NCBI GenBank assembly: GCA_002869845.2
Contig: NEWS02000004.1
Coordinates: forward strand, 851,954 to 915,953
Length of the DNA stretch: 64,000 bases
Direction of reading: 5' to 3'
Origin: Nitrospira sp. CG24B
GTDB lineage: Bacteria; Nitrospirota; Nitrospiria; Nitrospirales; Nitrospiraceae
The stretch's first letter is position 1. Every line of letters starts with the position of its first letter. Below the pieces are notes generated by a model, which was not told the origin of the DNA, made no database searches, and saw nothing but the letters and a program-made list of their open reading frames with translations. This document shows positions 11,886-18,810 of the stretch, one piece after another. The translations under genes were made by a program, and so were the position numbers.

Positions 11886-12104
11886 ATGAGGATTCAGGTC
11901 AAACGCGTGTATGAGCCCACGGCCAAGTCTGATGGGTTCCATGTGCTGGTCGATCGCTTGTGGCCACGGGGACTGTCCAAATCTGACGCGAAGCTTGATC
12001 TCTGGCTACCCGAGGATACGTCTCTTCAGGGTACTCCGGATCGTTCGGCACAGGATGTTAGGCATTCACTCGCACTGACTTGTAAGGCGAGGGGGGAGAT
12101 TCAA
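11886..12104 (+). pseudogene. Truncated DUF488 gene, running in frame into the next gene
   Basis: The first 41 residues ([11 protein letters not shown], then [20 protein letters not shown], then DLWL) match the N-terminus of DUF488 proteins, which are normally about 115-125 residues. After DLWL, at about 12010, similarity stops and the frame continues through about 32 unrelated residues into the start of the beta-propeller gene without a stop codon. The conserved core that should follow (a Trp-Phe-x-His-Asp type segment) is missing. I read this as the 5' stump left by a deletion or recombination that brought the propeller gene next to it. Confidence 0.65.
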
Positions 12105-13559
12105 ATGATCAGACCACTTGTCCGAATTGCGGCCGCCGCGATGTGTGGCGTGATTGTACAGGTTGCGACTCCGGCGAGTGGCGCGTGGGAACGTTTCCAT
12201 GGCGACGCCGCCAATCGCGGGTTTGCCGATGTGGATACGAAACCGGCTGCCGGGGGCTCCCTCAGCGTTCCCGGCCTCGGCACGTTCACGCCAGGCGCGG
12301 GTCCGGTCATCGCACCCGATGGAAGCGTCTATCTCGGCACGCAGGAAGGAAAAGTTATCGCTCTGCATGCGGACGGCAAGCCGTTCTGGAGCCGGGACAT
12401 CAACAAGGACGAATCGATCGTCGCCTCTCCCGCCGTCGGCGCGGATGGTTCGGTCTATGTGATCGGCGCCAAGTCGAAGATCACCAAAATAAAGTTGGGG
12501 ACGTTGGGGGCAAAAAAGACAGAGATCGCATCGATCTTGTATGCATTCAACGCGACAGGCGCCCTGCTGGCGCGGACGCCATTCCCCACTCGGACAGGCC
12601 TCCGTGGCGCCACCACGGCACCACCCAACATCGTCAGCGTAGGTGGGAAGGAGGTCATTCTCACACCCGCGATCTACCGACAGCCACACGGCGTGGAAAT
12701 GCGGCTTATCGGATTCGTGCCCACTGGAGGCGTCGTGCTCGATCAGTTGGTGACTCTAGAATTCGGGACCCCAACCGGCGGCGGCGAGTTCACTGGAATC
12801 GGCCTGGACGATGCTCTTTGCCTTATTCCCCCCCTAGGTTTCGTCTATTGCGCGATTTGCGGATTCGGCCAATGCGACTACAATCCGTCTGTGGCTCCGA
12901 GGGTTCCTCCGCCCATGCCCGGCGTTGGGGTCTTCACGTTCGCCGGTGGCGGCGCGCCGCATGTCATCGTCAGTAACCAGCTTCACAGCATCAAGGGATT
13001 CACCGCGACCTCCGCGCTCGGCTTGACCGATACGTTTCAAATACGCGATGGCGGACGGTCGTTATTTTCCGCGCCGATGGTCCTGCCTAACGGCCACACG
13101 CTTGTCAGCACCGGCAACAGGGAAATCGTCTTTGCTGAACCCAATGCAAACAAGTTGTCGTCTGTCCGCAGCCCGGGCCTAGTGTATGGACCGGCGACCC
13201 TCACCGTGAACGGTTTTGCCGTAGTCGTTGGCGAATTGGGGCTGGCAGTCTTGAACAACGGCAACGTGGTGTCGCAAGTGTCGCTTCCACCCTCTTATAC
13301 GTCGGCTGCGGCGTCGCGCACGCATGTCTTCGTCTCGACAACCGACGCCTTCTTCACCTTAGATGCCGACGCGCAGTTGGAGTTGCAGAAGTTCGACTGG
13401 GTCGGGGGCGGGAAATCACCGCCGGCCATCGGACCCGACGGCCGCGTCTATGCAATCGCCTCCGACATTCTGTTCATATTCCCGCCGCCGCTCAAGGTCT
13501 CCAAGCCGCTCCCGCACTCGACTGGCGCTGTCCTGCAAAAAGACCCCGGCGGACAATAA
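12105..13559 (+). CDS. Exported PQQ-like beta-propeller repeat protein
   Basis: A 484-residue predicted periplasmic protein. The start at 12105 is set by GAGGGGGGAGA just upstream and by the signal peptide that follows ([20 protein letters not shown], cleavage near PASGA). After [17 protein letters not shown] come blade-like repeats of the PQQ/WD-type propeller, such as [37 protein letters not shown] and [19 protein letters not shown]. No quinoprotein dehydrogenase catalytic residues are recognisable, so an assembly or binding role is more likely than enzymatic. A Cys-rich insert with [19 protein letters not shown] lies near the middle, probably disulfide-bonded. The upstream frame is open but belongs to the DUF488 stump. 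Confidence 0.75.
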
Positions 13560-13601
13560 TCGCGGCGTGCCTAAGCGGGCGACGCCAGGTCATATGTCTC
13601 G

Positions 13602-13754
13602 ATGGACGATACGGGTTGGATGATTCTCATAGGAATTGGTGGTGTCGTACTTTGGTTGGTGATTCACCAGCGGTACCGCCGGTGGAAAGCCGGAAAATTA
13701 GCCGATCAACTTTTGCAGAACGTAATTAAAAGCAAGGCCGCGTTTCGGCGATAG
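13602..13754 (+). CDS. Small single-span membrane protein, 50 residues
   Basis: A short gene translated as MDDTGWMILIGIGGVVLWLV, then IHQRYRRWKAGKLADQLLQN, then a basic tail. It has one strong membrane helix (WMILIGIGGVVLWLVI) followed by a positively charged amphipathic stretch, so the C-terminus should be cytoplasmic. The start has only a poor ribosome binding site. It lies 42 bases after the propeller gene and 56 before tag. The clean membrane-plus-basic layout argues for a real gene, but conservation is untested. Confidence 0.45.
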   Translation: MDDTGWMILIGIGGVVLWLVIHQRYRRWKAGKLADQLLQNVIKSKAAFRR

Positions 13755-13810
13755 CGTCTATGGTAGACATCGGGTGATTGAAGACCCTCAGTAGGTACGA
13801 AGGTCGGGTT

Positions 13811-14398
13811 ATGCCTCTTGAAAAGACACTGCGGACGCGATGCCTATGGGCCGGAGACAAACCGCATATGATCCGCTATCACGACCGGGAGTGGGGGAGG
13901 CCGGTGCATCACGATCGTCGGCTTTTTGAACTGTTGCTACTCGAAAGCGCGCAGGCTGGCCTCACCTGGGACACAATATTAAAGCGCCGAGAGAACTATC
14001 GAAAGGCCTTTGATGGCTTTGATCCCGCCAAAGTCGCCAAGTTTACAGCCGCCAGAAAGAAACAGTTATTGGGCAATCCTGGCATCATCCGCAATCGGTT
14101 GAAGATCGACGCGGCAGTGACGAATGCGCAGGCCTTTCTGGCGGTACAGAAAGAATTCGGATCGTTCGATCGGTATGTCTGGCAATTTGTCGACGGGAAA
14201 CCAAAAGTGAATCGTCGGCGAACGATGGCGGATGTCCCAGCTACAAGCCCGGAGAGCGATGCGCTGTCAAAAGACCTGAAGAAACGCGGGTTCCGCTTCG
14301 TGGGAAGCACGATCGTCTATGCCTTCATGCAGGCCATTGGAATGGTGGATGACCATCTCAACGGCTGCTTCGCCAAGACGCGAGCGGCCGCCAAGTAA
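13811..14398 (+). CDS. tag: DNA-3-methyladenine glycosylase I
   Basis: A base-excision repair enzyme of 195 residues that removes 3-methyladenine from DNA. The ATG at 13811 has AAGG nine bases upstream; an in-frame TTG at 13778 is less likely. Visible Tag-family features are RCLWAGD near the start, MIRYHDREWGRPVHHD, LFELLLLESAQAGLTWDTIL (the core helix with the conserved Glu and Trp), the FVDGKP loop and FVGSTIVYAFMQAIGMVDDH near the end. The first zinc-ligand Cys is in RCLW, and the late His and Cys are in DDHLNGCF, so the zinc site looks complete. No operon partner. Confidence 0.95.
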   Translation: MPLEKTLRTRCLWAGDKPHMIRYHDREWGRPVHHDRRLFELLLLESAQAGLTWDTILKRRENYRKAFDGFDPAKVAKFTAARKKQLLGNPGIIRNRLKIDAAVTNAQAFLAVQKEFGSFDRYVWQFVDGKPKVNRRRTMADVPATSPESDALSKDLKKRGFRFVGSTIVYAFMQAIGMVDDHLNGCFAKTRAAAK

Positions 14399-14462
14399 CC
14401 CAGTGCTTACGCGCGCCCAGTGACCTAAGCGACAGACAGAGTCCGAGCCCCAGGCGGGGGCG

Positions 14463-14891
14463 TCACATGGAGCGCCTTGTTGGTGACTCACTGGTTTCCC
14501 AGTGGCTCAAGTGCCTTAGCTGGTACAGCTTCTGCGATCCCTTCTGCTTGTTGGTGAGGTCAATCCGCGGATCATGTCGAAAAATGCCCAGCAGAAGCGC
14601 CTCTATTTCTCTTATCTCGTCACGAGTGATGTTGTAATGCACCTCGAACAGAGAGAAATGTGTCCAGCTCTTCTGTTTCGCGTTGTGGCTTTTTAGTCGG
14701 CCGCGCGCACCTCCGCCACCAGTCTTCCCAAGTCCAGCAACGCCAATGTATGTGACCTTGAAGGTGTCGCCTTTTCTATTTTCGTAGAGCACGTAGACGC
14801 CGCGCGTTTTCGGCGGGACCTGCCTCCAATTGGCGCGTGGCTCGTAACGCTTCCAGCGCTTAATGAGTCGGAGTAGCGATTGATTAGGCAT
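14463..14891 (-). CDS. GIY-YIG nuclease domain protein
   Basis: A 142-residue protein with a full GIY-YIG catalytic set: G31-V-Y33 in RGVYVLYENR, Y48-I-G50 in VTYIGVAG, R65 in GRLKSH, E97 in REIEALLLGIF and N114 in IDLTNKQKG. The domain makes up nearly the whole protein, with no added DNA-binding part. GIY-YIG enzymes cut DNA in repair, restriction and homing; this small stand-alone form could be any of these. AGAGGAA precedes the ATG. It lies about 200 bases downstream of a PD-(D/E)XK-like gene and a beta-CASP nuclease-like gene on the same strand, so three nuclease-type folds occur side by side. Confidence 0.8.
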   Translation of the reverse strand: MPNQSLLRLIKRWKRYEPRANWRQVPPKTRGVYVLYENRKGDTFKVTYIGVAGLGKTGGGGARGRLKSHNAKQKSWTHFSLFEVHYNITRDEIREIEALLLGIFRHDPRIDLTNKQKGSQKLYQLRHLSHWETSESPTRRSM

Positions 14892-15098
14892 ATTTCCTCT
14901 GTGAGCTTCAACGCACAGGACTTAGCCGCTTCGGCTCATGATTACCGGTCCACGGAAGCAGGCTTACCGTCACGCTTCTCTGAGTGGAAGGTAATTCGAT
15001 TTCCCCATCCATATGTTGAAGGGTAGCCCGGCGTCGAATTTGGTCAAGTGAACCCACTGTTGCTATTTGTCCTGGCTCTTCGCCGATATCCAACGAGT

Positions 15099-16034
15099 CT
15101 ACGCTCTCTTCGTTCTTCTCTTTCCAACCCATGCCCCTGGCACAGCGGGCGCGCCACCGGTCGCACATCCAAACCTCTTGGCTTCGTCTCGCCACTGTTG
15201 CCCGATGTTTTCTATCTTCTGCCGGTCTTTGAGAGCTTCTTTTACGAGAGCTCTATCTCGAATACTTTCTTCAGCAGAAAAGTCCCTCGGAAATGCCTGG
15301 AACTGGAAGTCCATCACATAGCCTTCAGACTTTTTGATGAATCCCTTCAGTCCCTTCGTGATTTCCATCTCAAGCCATTCAAATTGGTAGCCCTTGTAAT
15401 ATTCACAAGGGGCAAGGACAACTAAATGGATCGTCTTTGCTTGAAGTAACGGCTGCTCAGTGACGTCGTATCTAAATTCTTTGAGGTACCGCCTAGAGAA
15501 AATATAGAGAACACCATAAAGCAGCACCTCTATCGCCGCATAAACGGGATGGCCGCTCTTCCTGTCCACTTTGAGTTCTATAAATTCCACAGTATCGTAG
15601 CGATTCTGACCGGGGCGCACATGAACGAGATCGATAGCACGATGCTTGTCACACTTGTGATCCCATAGCCCAGATGCAGTCGGCACATGGTTCGTCCAAT
15701 TCTCGGCATCCGGCCACATCTTCTGGTTGATGTTGACCACCGCGCGTTGAAGTTGAATCTCCAAGCTCGGATTCTTCTTCGCCATACTTCTCTTTGGCTG
15801 GAAGCGCCAATTTTTGTCTGAGGGTGGCTCCTTGCGCGGTCGCGCTTTCCAATTCTTTTTAATCTGGTCGTAGACCTTTTTCAGAAGTTCGTCAGCAAAG
15901 TTCTTGAGTGGAACGCGATGGAGCTGATCACAGGCCTCCTTGTGGCGATAATGTGGCGACGTTTTACCGATTGACCAGACTCCGAGTTTCTTATCGATAA
16001 TTCCGTTCACACCTTTCAGAATCCCATTCTGCAT
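15099..16034 (-). CDS. PD-(D/E)XK nuclease-like protein of unknown family
   Basis: A 311-residue protein that I cannot place in a named family. A PD-(D/E)XK-type core can be traced: E92 in SLEIQLQRAV, D135 in RAIDLVHVRP, then E153-L-K155 in VEFIELKVDRKS, and a helix AAIEVLLYGVLY. The order of acidic residue, D, ExK and helix with a polar residue matches restriction-endonuclease-like folds. The N-terminal 85 residues are basic (KKNWKARPRKEPP) and may bind nucleic acid. The C-terminal third has VMDFQFQAFP and a charged helix. The start has GGAGAGGG upstream and lies 17 bases after the stop of the beta-CASP gene, so the two are surely co-transcribed. Codon use looks less GC-rich than in neighbours, hinting at transfer. 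Confidence 0.6.
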   Translation of the reverse strand: MQNGILKGVNGIIDKKLGVWSIGKTSPHYRHKEACDQLHRVPLKNFADELLKKVYDQIKKNWKARPRKEPPSDKNWRFQPKRSMAKKNPSLEIQLQRAVVNINQKMWPDAENWTNHVPTASGLWDHKCDKHRAIDLVHVRPGQNRYDTVEFIELKVDRKSGHPVYAAIEVLLYGVLYIFSRRYLKEFRYDVTEQPLLQAKTIHLVVLAPCEYYKGYQFEWLEMEITKGLKGFIKKSEGYVMDFQFQAFPRDFSAEESIRDRALVKEALKDRQKIENIGQQWRDEAKRFGCATGGAPAVPGAWVGKRRTKRA

Positions 16035-16051
16035 GATTGCCCTCTCCTAAA

Positions 16052-17296
16052 CTAACTGATCTCCCACCACTTGCCGTCTTCTTTCTGTTCAACGCGATCA
16101 AAGAACTCCTTGAACCGCCCGGTCTCGAATGAGTGAATCGGCACGAGCATCTTGGGATTTATCGCTTGGGCGAAGGCTTGCAAATCCAATAGGGAGGCAT
16201 GACCGGAGGTATGGCAATGAGTCAGGGGAATGTGATGGCGCTCCAGCCATTCGAGAAACGGATACTGTTCTTTTCGCTTGAGATAGCCAGGCCATAACGA
16301 ATAGATCACGTGCGCACCCTTGAGGCACGCAGCCTTTTCCAAATCCCGGCTCATCGACGGGCGAAACAGCATGACTGAGCTGGATGCCTGCTCTGCCAGT
16401 TGCTCGGGATAGATGCGAGCGGCCTTGTAGCATTCAGCCAATGAGAATAGCTTCGCTTTGATGATCTGGCGTTTCTGTGACTGCGGAAGGAAGACCTTGA
16501 TGCCGTCCCAAGTGGCCTGTGGAAGTTTTGGATTTCCGGTGGCACGAAGGATCTCAGCCGTGTACATATCGATCATCAACTGCCGGCCGCTTTTCTTACA
16601 GGCTTTGAACATCGTGACAAACCGATCGATGTTCTGAGCCGAGGCCCAGACCAAGACCAGGCCTGGGGTTTGCCGTATCTGTTCAAGGAAACACGCTTCA
16701 AGTTCTCGTTCGGCAGGAAATTGCTTGGCAGCACTGACACGTCCGATAGTGGTGCCTTCCATAAGCAGAACATCGATATCTTCCGGCGGATTCTTTAGAA
16801 TCTGTTGGAAGATCCTTGCCTTCCGTCCATGTCCACGCAGATCTCCCGAATAGAAGACCCGCTGTCCGTCCGCTTCAATGAGGAGAGAATAGGCGTCGTA
16901 AGCAGAATGATCATTCAGGAAAGGCGTGAGCGTAAAAGGCCCGATCGAAAGCGGGACTCGATGTTCTAAATGACGAACTCGCTGAAACGCGACGCCGGCC
17001 GGAGTAAAGAAGCTTGCTGCCTTGAGGATTCGTTCGGCAGCGGCCCCCATGATCATTGGCGTGTCAGGCAAAAGATACTTCGCCAACCCATAATGATCCT
17101 GATGCGGGTGTGAGATGACGACCGCCAGTAATGATGACTCGCGTTCACGAAACCCTTTCACCTGGGGCAAGCTGGCCTCGGAATCTTCGGCTTCCAACGG
17201 AAGACCGACATCCAAGACGATGCGCTTGCCTCCAGATTCGATCTCAATGCAGGTGCCACCGACCTCCTGAGTTCCCCTATGAATGCATACCCGCAT
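16052..17296 (-). CDS. Metallo-beta-lactamase / beta-CASP RNase J-like hydrolase
   Basis: A 414-residue MBL-fold protein. The metal-binding motif H63-P-H65-Q-D67-H68 is intact, followed by NDHSAYDAYSLLI, FYSGDLRGHGRKA and LMEGTTIGR. The second half has beta-CASP features: VLVWASAQNIDRFVTMF, LFRPSMSRDLE, CHTSGHASLLDLQAF and the final LVPIHSFETGRF. These are typical of RNase J and related RNA- or DNA-cutting enzymes, though RNase J itself is longer (about 550) and has an extra C-terminal domain, missing here. It is the first gene of a unit with the PD-(D/E)XK-like gene 17 bases downstream. I infer a nucleic-acid nuclease; the substrate is unknown. Confidence 0.8.
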   Translation of the reverse strand: MRVCIHRGTQEVGGTCIEIESGGKRIVLDVGLPLEAEDSEASLPQVKGFRERESSLLAVVISHPHQDHYGLAKYLLPDTPMIMGAAAERILKAASFFTPAGVAFQRVRHLEHRVPLSIGPFTLTPFLNDHSAYDAYSLLIEADGQRVFYSGDLRGHGRKARIFQQILKNPPEDIDVLLMEGTTIGRVSAAKQFPAERELEACFLEQIRQTPGLVLVWASAQNIDRFVTMFKACKKSGRQLMIDMYTAEILRATGNPKLPQATWDGIKVFLPQSQKRQIIKAKLFSLAECYKAARIYPEQLAEQASSSVMLFRPSMSRDLEKAACLKGAHVIYSLWPGYLKRKEQYPFLEWLERHHIPLTHCHTSGHASLLDLQAFAQAINPKMLVPIHSFETGRFKEFFDRVEQKEDGKWWEIS

Positions 17297-17654
17297 GACA
17301 AGCCTGAGGTTACCATTGACGATAATAAAAGCTACTCTTAGCTATCTTTCGCCCCAAGCTGGTTGGAGCACCGATAGGCCTGGCGAAGTTGACGCTCGGA
17401 GGTGTCGGCGCATTCACTGGATTGTCAATTCGTCCCAATTTTGTGGGATGTTTGAATGCCTGTGGCTTCCTCGGTGGCCTACCAGCAACCAGCTGTCGTC
17501 CCGTAACCTATCCAGGATTCCGCTGACTTTCATGCATGTGGGATAGCTCATGCGCGGTGAAAAACCAATGCACATTGCGTCCTTTTCGAAGCTCCTCCGT
17601 CTATAGAGATGAGTGGCGGAATCATCCGCGGCTCTCTCAGAATGAGGTGCTCCC
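17297..17654. other. Divergent intergenic region
   Basis: About 360 bases between the beta-CASP gene and the ArsI/CadI-like gene, which point away from each other. No convincing gene, repeat or promoter pair can be named. An open frame at 17414-17695 overlaps the next gene and resembles nothing. Confidence 0.5.
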
Positions 17655-18098
17655 ATGCGTCCGCATATTTCACTTGATGTCCGTGATGTGTCCAAATCAG
17701 TCGCGTTCTACGAAAAGGTATTCGGGGTGAAGCCACAGAAACAGGTGGTCGACTATGCCAAGTTTGACCTAAAAACCCCAGCGCTGAACTTCTCGTTGGT
17801 GTCCTCAACCGGAGCGGTGAGTGCCGTGGATCACTTGGGGATCGAGGTCGAGACGGTCGAGGAGATTGCCGAATGGAAGGCCCGGTTGCAACATGAAGGG
17901 ATACTTGAACGAGTAGAGGATAACATCGCCTGTTGCTTCGCTCGACAAGATAAGCTTTGGTTTGCCGATCCAGACGGCAATGCGTGGGAAATCTTTACCG
18001 TCCATGAGCAGTTGGAAGTGACAGGACGACTCAGTCAAACAGGCTGTTGTGTGCCGAAGAAGGTCGGTGCTCATGAGCCTGCCACTTGCGGCGCCTGA
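17655..18098 (+). CDS. ArsI/CadI-family VOC protein
   Basis: A 147-residue vicinal-oxygen-chelate protein. It opens MRPHISLDVRDVSKSVAFYE with metal ligand His4, and has VDHLGIEVETVEE (His) and FADPDGNAWEIF (Glu), the three-ligand facial set of extradiol-type enzymes. The pair of adjacent cysteines in NIACCFARQDKLWF is the mark of ArsI/CadI proteins; in ArsI it binds the trivalent arsenical before C-As bond cleavage. More cysteines occur near the C-terminus (TGCCVPKK and the last residues). GAGG precedes the start. It is followed 46 bases later by a SigZ-type sigma factor gene, so both may be one metal- or metalloid-responsive unit. The natural substrate is not shown. Confidence 0.82.
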   Translation: MRPHISLDVRDVSKSVAFYEKVFGVKPQKQVVDYAKFDLKTPALNFSLVSSTGAVSAVDHLGIEVETVEEIAEWKARLQHEGILERVEDNIACCFARQDKLWFADPDGNAWEIFTVHEQLEVTGRLSQTGCCVPKKVGAHEPATCGA

Positions 18099-18143
18099 GT
18101 TGGAGCAGTACTGTATGTAAGGTTGATGCGAAAGGAGGCCATC

Positions 18144-18770
18144 ATGACAAAGACGACGGAAGAACTCTGGCAACTCGTTCATGATGGCCTCCGTGCCTTT
18201 ATCGCCAAGCGAGTGACCGATCAGGGGCATGTCGAGGATATTCTGCAGGACGTGTTCGTGCGTGTCCATCGGCAGATAGACTCTGTGAGCGATCCAGGCC
18301 GGTTGATGTCATGGATCTATCAAATCACGCGACATGCGATCATTGATCATTACCGGAAGCCAGGAAGACAGCGAGAGGTTCCAGCAGGGTTGAGTTCAGA
18401 ACTTGAAGTATTACGTGAATCGCCGGTAGTCTCAGAATTGATTTATGATGGCGATGCGGCTGAGCCTCGTGCAGAACTCGCTCATTGCCTTCGCCCCATG
18501 ATTGAACGACTCTCAAAAGACTATCGAGATGCGATCAACCTTGTAGAACTCGAGGGCCTGACACAGCAGGCTGCAGCCACACAGATGGGCGTTTCATTGT
18601 CTGGCATGAAGTCTCGGGTGCAACGGGGGCGCAAACAACTCAAACAGATGCTCGACGACTGCTGCCTGATCGAACTAGATCGCCGGAAAGGCGTCATTGA
18701 CTATCAGCAGCACAGAGCCGACTGCAATCTCTGTGGATCTGACCAAAAAACGCCAGAAATAGACTTCTGA
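18144..18770 (+). CDS. sigZ: ECF-type RNA polymerase sigma factor, SigZ-like
   Basis: A 208-residue extracytoplasmic-function sigma factor. The start at 18144 has a full AAAGGAGG eight bases upstream. Region 2 is clear (VEDILQDVFVRVHRQID, then RLMSWIYQITRHAIIDHYRK), and region 4 has LSKDYRDAINLVELEGLTQQ followed by AATQMGVSLSGMKSRVQRGR. The C-terminal CC pair in LDDCCLIELDRRKGVIDY, together with CNLCG, is typical of SigZ and may bind metal or sense thiols. No anti-sigma gene lies next to it, as is usual for SigZ. The upstream gene is ArsI/CadI-like. It converges on the haem peroxidase gene across a strong hairpin. Confidence 0.88.
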   Translation: MTKTTEELWQLVHDGLRAFIAKRVTDQGHVEDILQDVFVRVHRQIDSVSDPGRLMSWIYQITRHAIIDHYRKPGRQREVPAGLSSELEVLRESPVVSELIYDGDAAEPRAELAHCLRPMIERLSKDYRDAINLVELEGLTQQAAATQMGVSLSGMKSRVQRGRKQLKQMLDDCCLIELDRRKGVIDYQQHRADCNLCGSDQKTPEIDF

Positions 18771-18781
18771 AACTCTATGCC

Positions 18782-18810
18782 ATGGGTACCCTCTGAAAGA
18801 GGGTACCCAT
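18782..18810. terminator. Strong hairpin between convergent sigZ and peroxidase genes
   Basis: ATGGGTACCCTCT, a GAA loop, and AGAGGGTACCCAT form a perfect 13-base-pair stem. It begins 12 bases after the sigZ stop and lies 20 bases from the peroxidase stop. No long T-run follows on either side, but the stem alone suggests a bidirectional terminator or mRNA end. Confidence 0.6.

Follow-up and report, generated by a model that had tools for sequence, protein, structure and literature searches.

The described system nearest in idea to the locus reported here is the trypsin–MBL module of Hachiman, AVAST and Lamassu, in which a ComEC-like MBL is activated by a trypsin-like protease (PMC12799240). 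In both, an MBL nuclease is found repeatedly alongside another enzyme of a defence type, but our MBL is of the beta-CASP type and its partner is of the PD-(D/E)XK type rather than a protease, and we do not place the pair in that module. For the MBL alone, the closest described enzymes are RNase J and related beta-CASP ribonucleases (TIGR00649; PDB IDs: 5a0t, 7pcr, 2az4), which share with it the MBL and beta-CASP motifs and a His at motif C. Such a His marks the RNA-processing beta-CASP enzymes, the DNA-type ones having Val (PMC3095777), a rule that is a correlation, as a Val-to-His change in SNM1A left selectivity unchanged (PMC7458816). The paired MBL differs from RNase J in its length (414 rather than ~550 residues) and in being accessory, patchily distributed and usually found beside a PD-(D/E)XK-type gene. 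An RNase J-like beta-CASP domain is also present in Cas14 of Type VII CRISPR, whose HMM matches our MBL weakly (36.7 bits against a cut-off of 800); there are no direct repeats at positions 13000–18800 of the window, by which we mean the whole 64,000-nucleotide stretch of Nitrospira sp. CG24B DNA analysed, and we rejected this assignment.

On the side of the partner, Shedu SduA, Hachiman HamA, Lamassu LmuA, Upx and Can2/Card1 have the same core fold and catalytic layout, but no sequence-level relationship to any of them was found. Moreover, the constant gene in the PD-(D/E)XK defence systems that we compared is a helicase, SMC or CARF module, whereas here it is a beta-CASP MBL. PADLOC-DB 2.0 contains no match for the MBL or for its partner in the window, even at an E-value of 10, and the matches of ten other partners were all at the level of domains, to the candidates PDC-S11 (best 6.8e-8), PDC-S18 and PDC-S26 (1.3e-12), with a marginal one to PDC-M23A. 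A search of the open literature, which covered few bioRxiv-only or subscription papers, gave no description of the pairing, and the two-gene unit is apparently undescribed. The pair fits among the multi-enzyme nuclease modules and is not a member of any named system; we found no described system in which PD-(D/E)XK nucleases are combined with an enzyme of the RNase J type.

The paired genes in the window

The features of the locus, all on the minus strand, are as follows.

16052..17296, minus strand: beta-CASP MBL nuclease ("MBL"), 414 residues, RNase J-like but short, the conserved component; motifs H63-H65-D67-H68, H130, D152, E180 (motif A), H366 (motif B) and H388 (motif C)
16040..16048, minus strand: Shine-Dalgarno-like, ribosome-binding-like AGGAGAGGG, in the gap between MBL and B, read directly
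15099..16034, minus strand: protein "B" with a predicted PD-(D/E)XK fold, 311 residues, the variable component, downstream of MBL; helical N-terminal part, catalytic core at ~87–250 with E92/D135/E153-L-K155, variable low-confidence C-terminal tail
14463..14891, minus strand: GIY-YIG-type ORF, 142 residues, a neighbour outside the module

A first-pass annotation of this DNA had described three adjacent nuclease-type genes, and its three ORFs are all present at the coordinates it gave. From the stop of the MBL to the start of B there are 17 bases, as it had said, and from the end of B to the start of the GIY-YIG ORF there are 207 rather than its 200. It had also called the middle gene poorer in GC than its neighbours, which holds: at 48.9% (the MBL being at 53.3%), B is unusually AT-rich for the window, whose 42 ORFs have a mean of 55.3% (sd 2.5).

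The MBL contains the HPHQDH motif read in it earlier together with all of the motifs that define beta-CASP MBL nucleases (HxHxDH, the motif 3 His, the motif 4 Asp and motifs A, B and C), with His at motif C, and none of the nine catalytic motif residues tested varies in any of the 88 MBL sequences. It matches Lactamase_B_2 in Pfam (4.7e-11), and its MBL/beta-CASP part matches solved RNase J-type structures with E-values of 5e-12 to 6e-13 (PDB IDs: 5a0t, 7pcr; EF2904, 2az4). The RNase J family HMM also finds it (3.7e-17), at 61.9 bits against an NCBIfam cut-off of 400. With this score, a length of 414 residues rather than ~550 and separate canonical copies present, we rejected its identification as a canonical RNase J. 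The hosts examined have a separate RNase J-type protein of ~500–640 residues, 20–26% identical to the paired MBL, which is therefore an accessory relative and not the housekeeping enzyme.

B has no match in Pfam or NCBIfam, nor does its profile match any PDB sequence. The residues E92, D135, E153 and K155, pointed out in the first-pass annotation, are present and are invariant across 12 homologues, down to ~25% identity. The AlphaFold2 model (pLDDT 76.6, pTM 0.79, with pLDDT below 50 only after residue 252) has a core of helix 91–100, strands 113–118, 133–139 and 148–154, helix 163–182 and strand 201–208, with E92 on the first helix, D135 on strand 133–139 and E153/K155 ending strand 148–154. 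When the model was compared to the PDB with VIA-align, the proteins found were mostly of the PD-(D/E)XK superfamily (Can2 at the top with Z 6.4, then XisH, BamHI, Upx, SduA, PaqCI, LmuA and HamA); Foldseek gave no significant PDB match, either for this model or for that of the commonest partner described below. The predicted PD-(D/E)XK fold of B rests on the consistency of the VIA-align list, in which Z values are modest, and on the conserved signature. B and the partners share the features of the superfamily, namely an alpha-beta-beta-beta-alpha-beta core, D...(E/D)xK and an upstream acidic residue, and a structure prediction devoid of the nuclease core, which had been named beforehand as speaking against the annotation, was not what we obtained.

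Two distant homologues of B (~29%) lie without an MBL in one genome of the same order (L007 1267–2055 and L009 1387–2172). Next to each are an ORF with ankyrin repeats and another conserved ORF that is PD-(D/E)XK-like ('IGIESKRFEPF'), an arrangement that may represent a further pairing of this nuclease family.

The third gene is assigned to the GIY-YIG type because GVY, YIG, R, E and N can be read in its sequence and because it weakly matches PADLOC PDC-S14 (1.5e-9); it has no match in Pfam or PDB sequence searches. Among 79 Nitrospira genomes it occurs in one, the window's own, with no relative found in the other 78, including the five other carriers of the pair, and we rejected it as a third component of the module.

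The opposite strand carries, immediately upstream of the pair, a glyoxalase-fold ArsI-like gene and then an ECF (SigZ-like) sigma factor (17655–18770). Elsewhere in the window, the ORF at 11886–13559 consists of ~45 N-terminal residues, which we take to resemble DUF488, followed by a secreted beta-propeller-like protein, and it has the appearance of a truncated gene that reads on into a different ORF.

Recurrence of the pair in other genomes

We searched for B and the MBL in 98 related genomes, 59 of them Nitrospira. Full-length homologues of B and the MBL occur in exactly the same six Nitrospira genomes and are adjacent in each, B being split over two contig ends in one of them. The MBL alignment, run against 84,980 species genomes, gave 315 encoded relatives, and the best 80 of these, together with nine plasmid loci, make up the 89 loci analysed here. 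They span some ten phyla: Nitrospirota, Thermodesulfobacteriota, Planctomycetota, Pseudomonadota, Acidobacteriota, Gemmatimonadota, Myxococcota, Verrucomicrobiota and Actinomycetota, as well as plasmids of Bacteroidota and Bacillota.

When considering ORFs near to the MBL and in the same direction, 58 of 137 carry a strict PD-(D/E)XK signature, as against 17 of the 847 remaining ORFs of those loci; because the pattern was devised with a few plasmid examples already in view, and because loci that are related do not count as independent, the Fisher value of 5e-40 is only indicative. Counted by locus, a gene with the strict signature lies nearby in 58 of the 89 MBL loci compared to none of 20 canonical RNase J-type loci from the same genomes. 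Looser, partly hand-added signatures identify a partner in 75 of the 89, and homology searches of the remainder found one in L061 and L064, plus a partner on the opposite strand in L052. The MBL and partner form a single ORF in L045 and a C-terminal fusion in L101, though both come from draft assemblies and the L101 MBL is frameshifted, so these fusions may be errors. With L055 lying at a contig end, 88 loci are testable, and 79 of them (~90%) have a partner, 78 being co-directional and adjacent or fused and one on the opposite strand. L068 retains a partner remnant, L078 and L080 have partner homologues 1–3 kb from the MBL, and in six testable loci (L025, L030, L069, L087, L088 and L095) no partner was found. 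A later, independent sample of four more distant Nitrospirota loci had a partner in three.

The relationship was also examined in reverse. Among 199 genomes from a distant order of Alphaproteobacteria, the MBL and the commonest partner family, which differs from that of B, were found in the same three, and the two are adjacent in four of four loci. The repeated pairing with a beta-CASP gene in unrelated genomes, which the first-pass annotation had proposed as a check, is thus what we found, and not a picture in which the two are never adjacent. The annotation's more sober alternative, that independent nuclease or repair-type genes have come to lie side by side by chance, applies well to the GIY-YIG gene, seen only in the window's genome. 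For the MBL and B it is very unlikely, and we regard it as refuted by the exact co-occurrence in six Nitrospira genomes and the 0 of 20 in the RNase J control, with the alphaproteobacterial replication pointing the same way. That the MBL and its partner form a real two-gene module is strongly supported.

Partner exchange and signs of mobility

By BLAST the partners fall into 16 sequence clusters, some of which hhalign joins (the cluster of B with cluster 2 and cluster 4 with 11, each at probability 85; 0 with 12 at 67). The largest, cluster 0, covers 42 loci, and the AlphaFold model of its representative (pLDDT 90) matches Upx (Z 8.7), XisH, Can2, MunI, SduA and HamA, which places this second family, like B, in the PD-(D/E)XK fold. 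The B HMM found no match among the plasmid partner proteins (E > 0.3), so what B shares with the common partner family is the fold and the catalytic signature, and no detectable sequence relationship. A third cluster corresponds to Pfam PDDEXK_4 (9.5e-12), and for most of the partners tested Pfam gave nothing informative. The N-terminal parts differ by family, helical in B and beta-rich in cluster 0. In the L049 and L106 partners the usual E-x-K reads E-x-E, and their activity is therefore doubtful. Most clusters follow the MBL tree, with 18 changes for 16 labels; however, the close MBL sisters L058 and L062 carry different partner families, and the partners of L071 and L105 likewise differ from those of their tree neighbours. 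The partner is fast-diverging and exchangeable beside a constant MBL, a contrast that would fit an arms race, and other conflicts would give the same.

The pair shows signs of horizontal mobility in its patchy distribution, its presence on plasmids, its differing chromosomal sites and its integrase and resolvase neighbours. It occurs in 6 of 59 Nitrospira genomes, and the MBL in 9 of 295 genomes of the phylum and 3 of 199 of the alphaproteobacterial order. Copies on conjugative and mobilisable plasmids lie beside relaxase, Tn3 or Tni genes. In the window the pair sits between Tag and the ArsI-like/ECF-sigma pair. Three other Nitrospira genomes have it next to ribE and an MFS gene, and one more has it ~5 kb from ribE; none of the genes flanking these other copies matches a window gene. 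Neighbours of the MBL elsewhere include WYL regulators (14 of 89 loci), integrases, resolvases, PP2C phosphatases and double-AAA ATPases. Searches of phage and viral collections (viral contigs, phages) gave no match to the MBL or B, and B also had none on plasmids. The proposal in the first-pass annotation of a mobile module of three nucleases therefore stands for its first two genes, through their pairing in unrelated genomes, patchiness, plasmid copies and differing sites, and falls for the GIY-YIG gene.

This distribution bears on two other explanations. A host unit for nucleic-acid processing or repair, unrelated to defence, would be in keeping with RNase J and other RNA-processing beta-CASP enzymes being the closest solved relatives of the MBL, but such a unit would sit poorly with so patchy an occurrence, with a separate canonical RNase J in the same genomes, with plasmid copies and with replacement of the partner, and we think it improbable. 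Slightly less probable again is a function for a mobile element, such as the control of excision, transfer or competition between plasmids or integrative elements. The relaxase, Tn3 or Tni genes, integrases and resolvases found nearby would suit it, as would the structural matches of the partners to XisH, an element-excision factor. However, the XisH matches are at the level of fold only, the pair has no fixed element or recombinase, and some chromosomal copies lie among ordinary genes such as ribE.

A candidate role in defence

We consider a role for the pair as a mobile two-gene nuclease module, cooperating in anti-phage or anti-plasmid defence, to have a little better than an even chance. 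The MBL and its partner would cooperate, probably by forming a complex or with one as sensor and the other as effector. The PD-(D/E)XK partner may recognise or cut foreign DNA and so give specificity, and the beta-CASP enzyme would cut RNA, either phage transcripts or cellular RNA; joint action on DNA and RNA could then provide the defence. We put the chance no higher because the matched-control neighbourhood test was not positive: known defence genes near the pair represent 43 PADLOC families in 125 neighbours compared to 54 in 123 matched control genes, a crude comparison that counts families rather than genes and has ABC-transporter false positives in the control. The lack of a match for the MBL or B in PADLOC and in the phage and viral collections also speaks against a defence role.

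The same linkage could instead reflect a toxin–antitoxin-like or addiction module, with one nuclease toxic and the other restraining it or processing its transcript. Tightly linked, often overlapping co-directional genes, some of them on plasmids, and a patchy distribution are what such a module would show. Yet both components are enzymes of 300–414 residues with complete catalytic sites, unlike a typical protein antitoxin, and the conservation of the partner lies in fold rather than sequence, leaving this explanation unlikely.

A bolder proposal is that the pair represents an unrecognised immune or inter-element conflict system, in which an invariant RNA-type beta-CASP enzyme and an interchangeable PD-(D/E)XK partner attack RNA and DNA on one infection signal and swapping of the partner brings diversity. 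We hold this tentatively, at somewhat less than an even chance; if true, partner swapping would be a route of arms-race diversification. In the defence and domain catalogues that we searched there is no entry for the two-gene unit, although its constant gene has 315 encoded relatives. The unit can serve as a natural experiment on how partners are exchanged and, as a candidate defence system, is compact and testable. It also gives an annotation lead for proteins now called 'MBL fold metallo-hydrolase' and 'hypothetical protein'.

Several further families lie next to the MBL. A small family of ~125–165 residues without a Pfam match ('GIFW...HYR') adjoins it in 11 loci, mostly from Alphaproteobacteria (for instance L023 4558–4953, L024 4516–4992, L025 4555–4998 and L029 6256–6630). 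In two loci from Nitrospirota (L038 4745–5710 and L039 6048–7004), the gene immediately upstream of the MBL belongs to a family of 318–321 residues ('VLVIANKSWEATALM') and is a possible third component. PP2C phosphatases (L070 3298–4062, L109, L065) or double-AAA ATPases (L088 805–3315, L147 2690–4867, L090) are found directly beside the MBL in some lineages, which suggests lineage-specific regulators.
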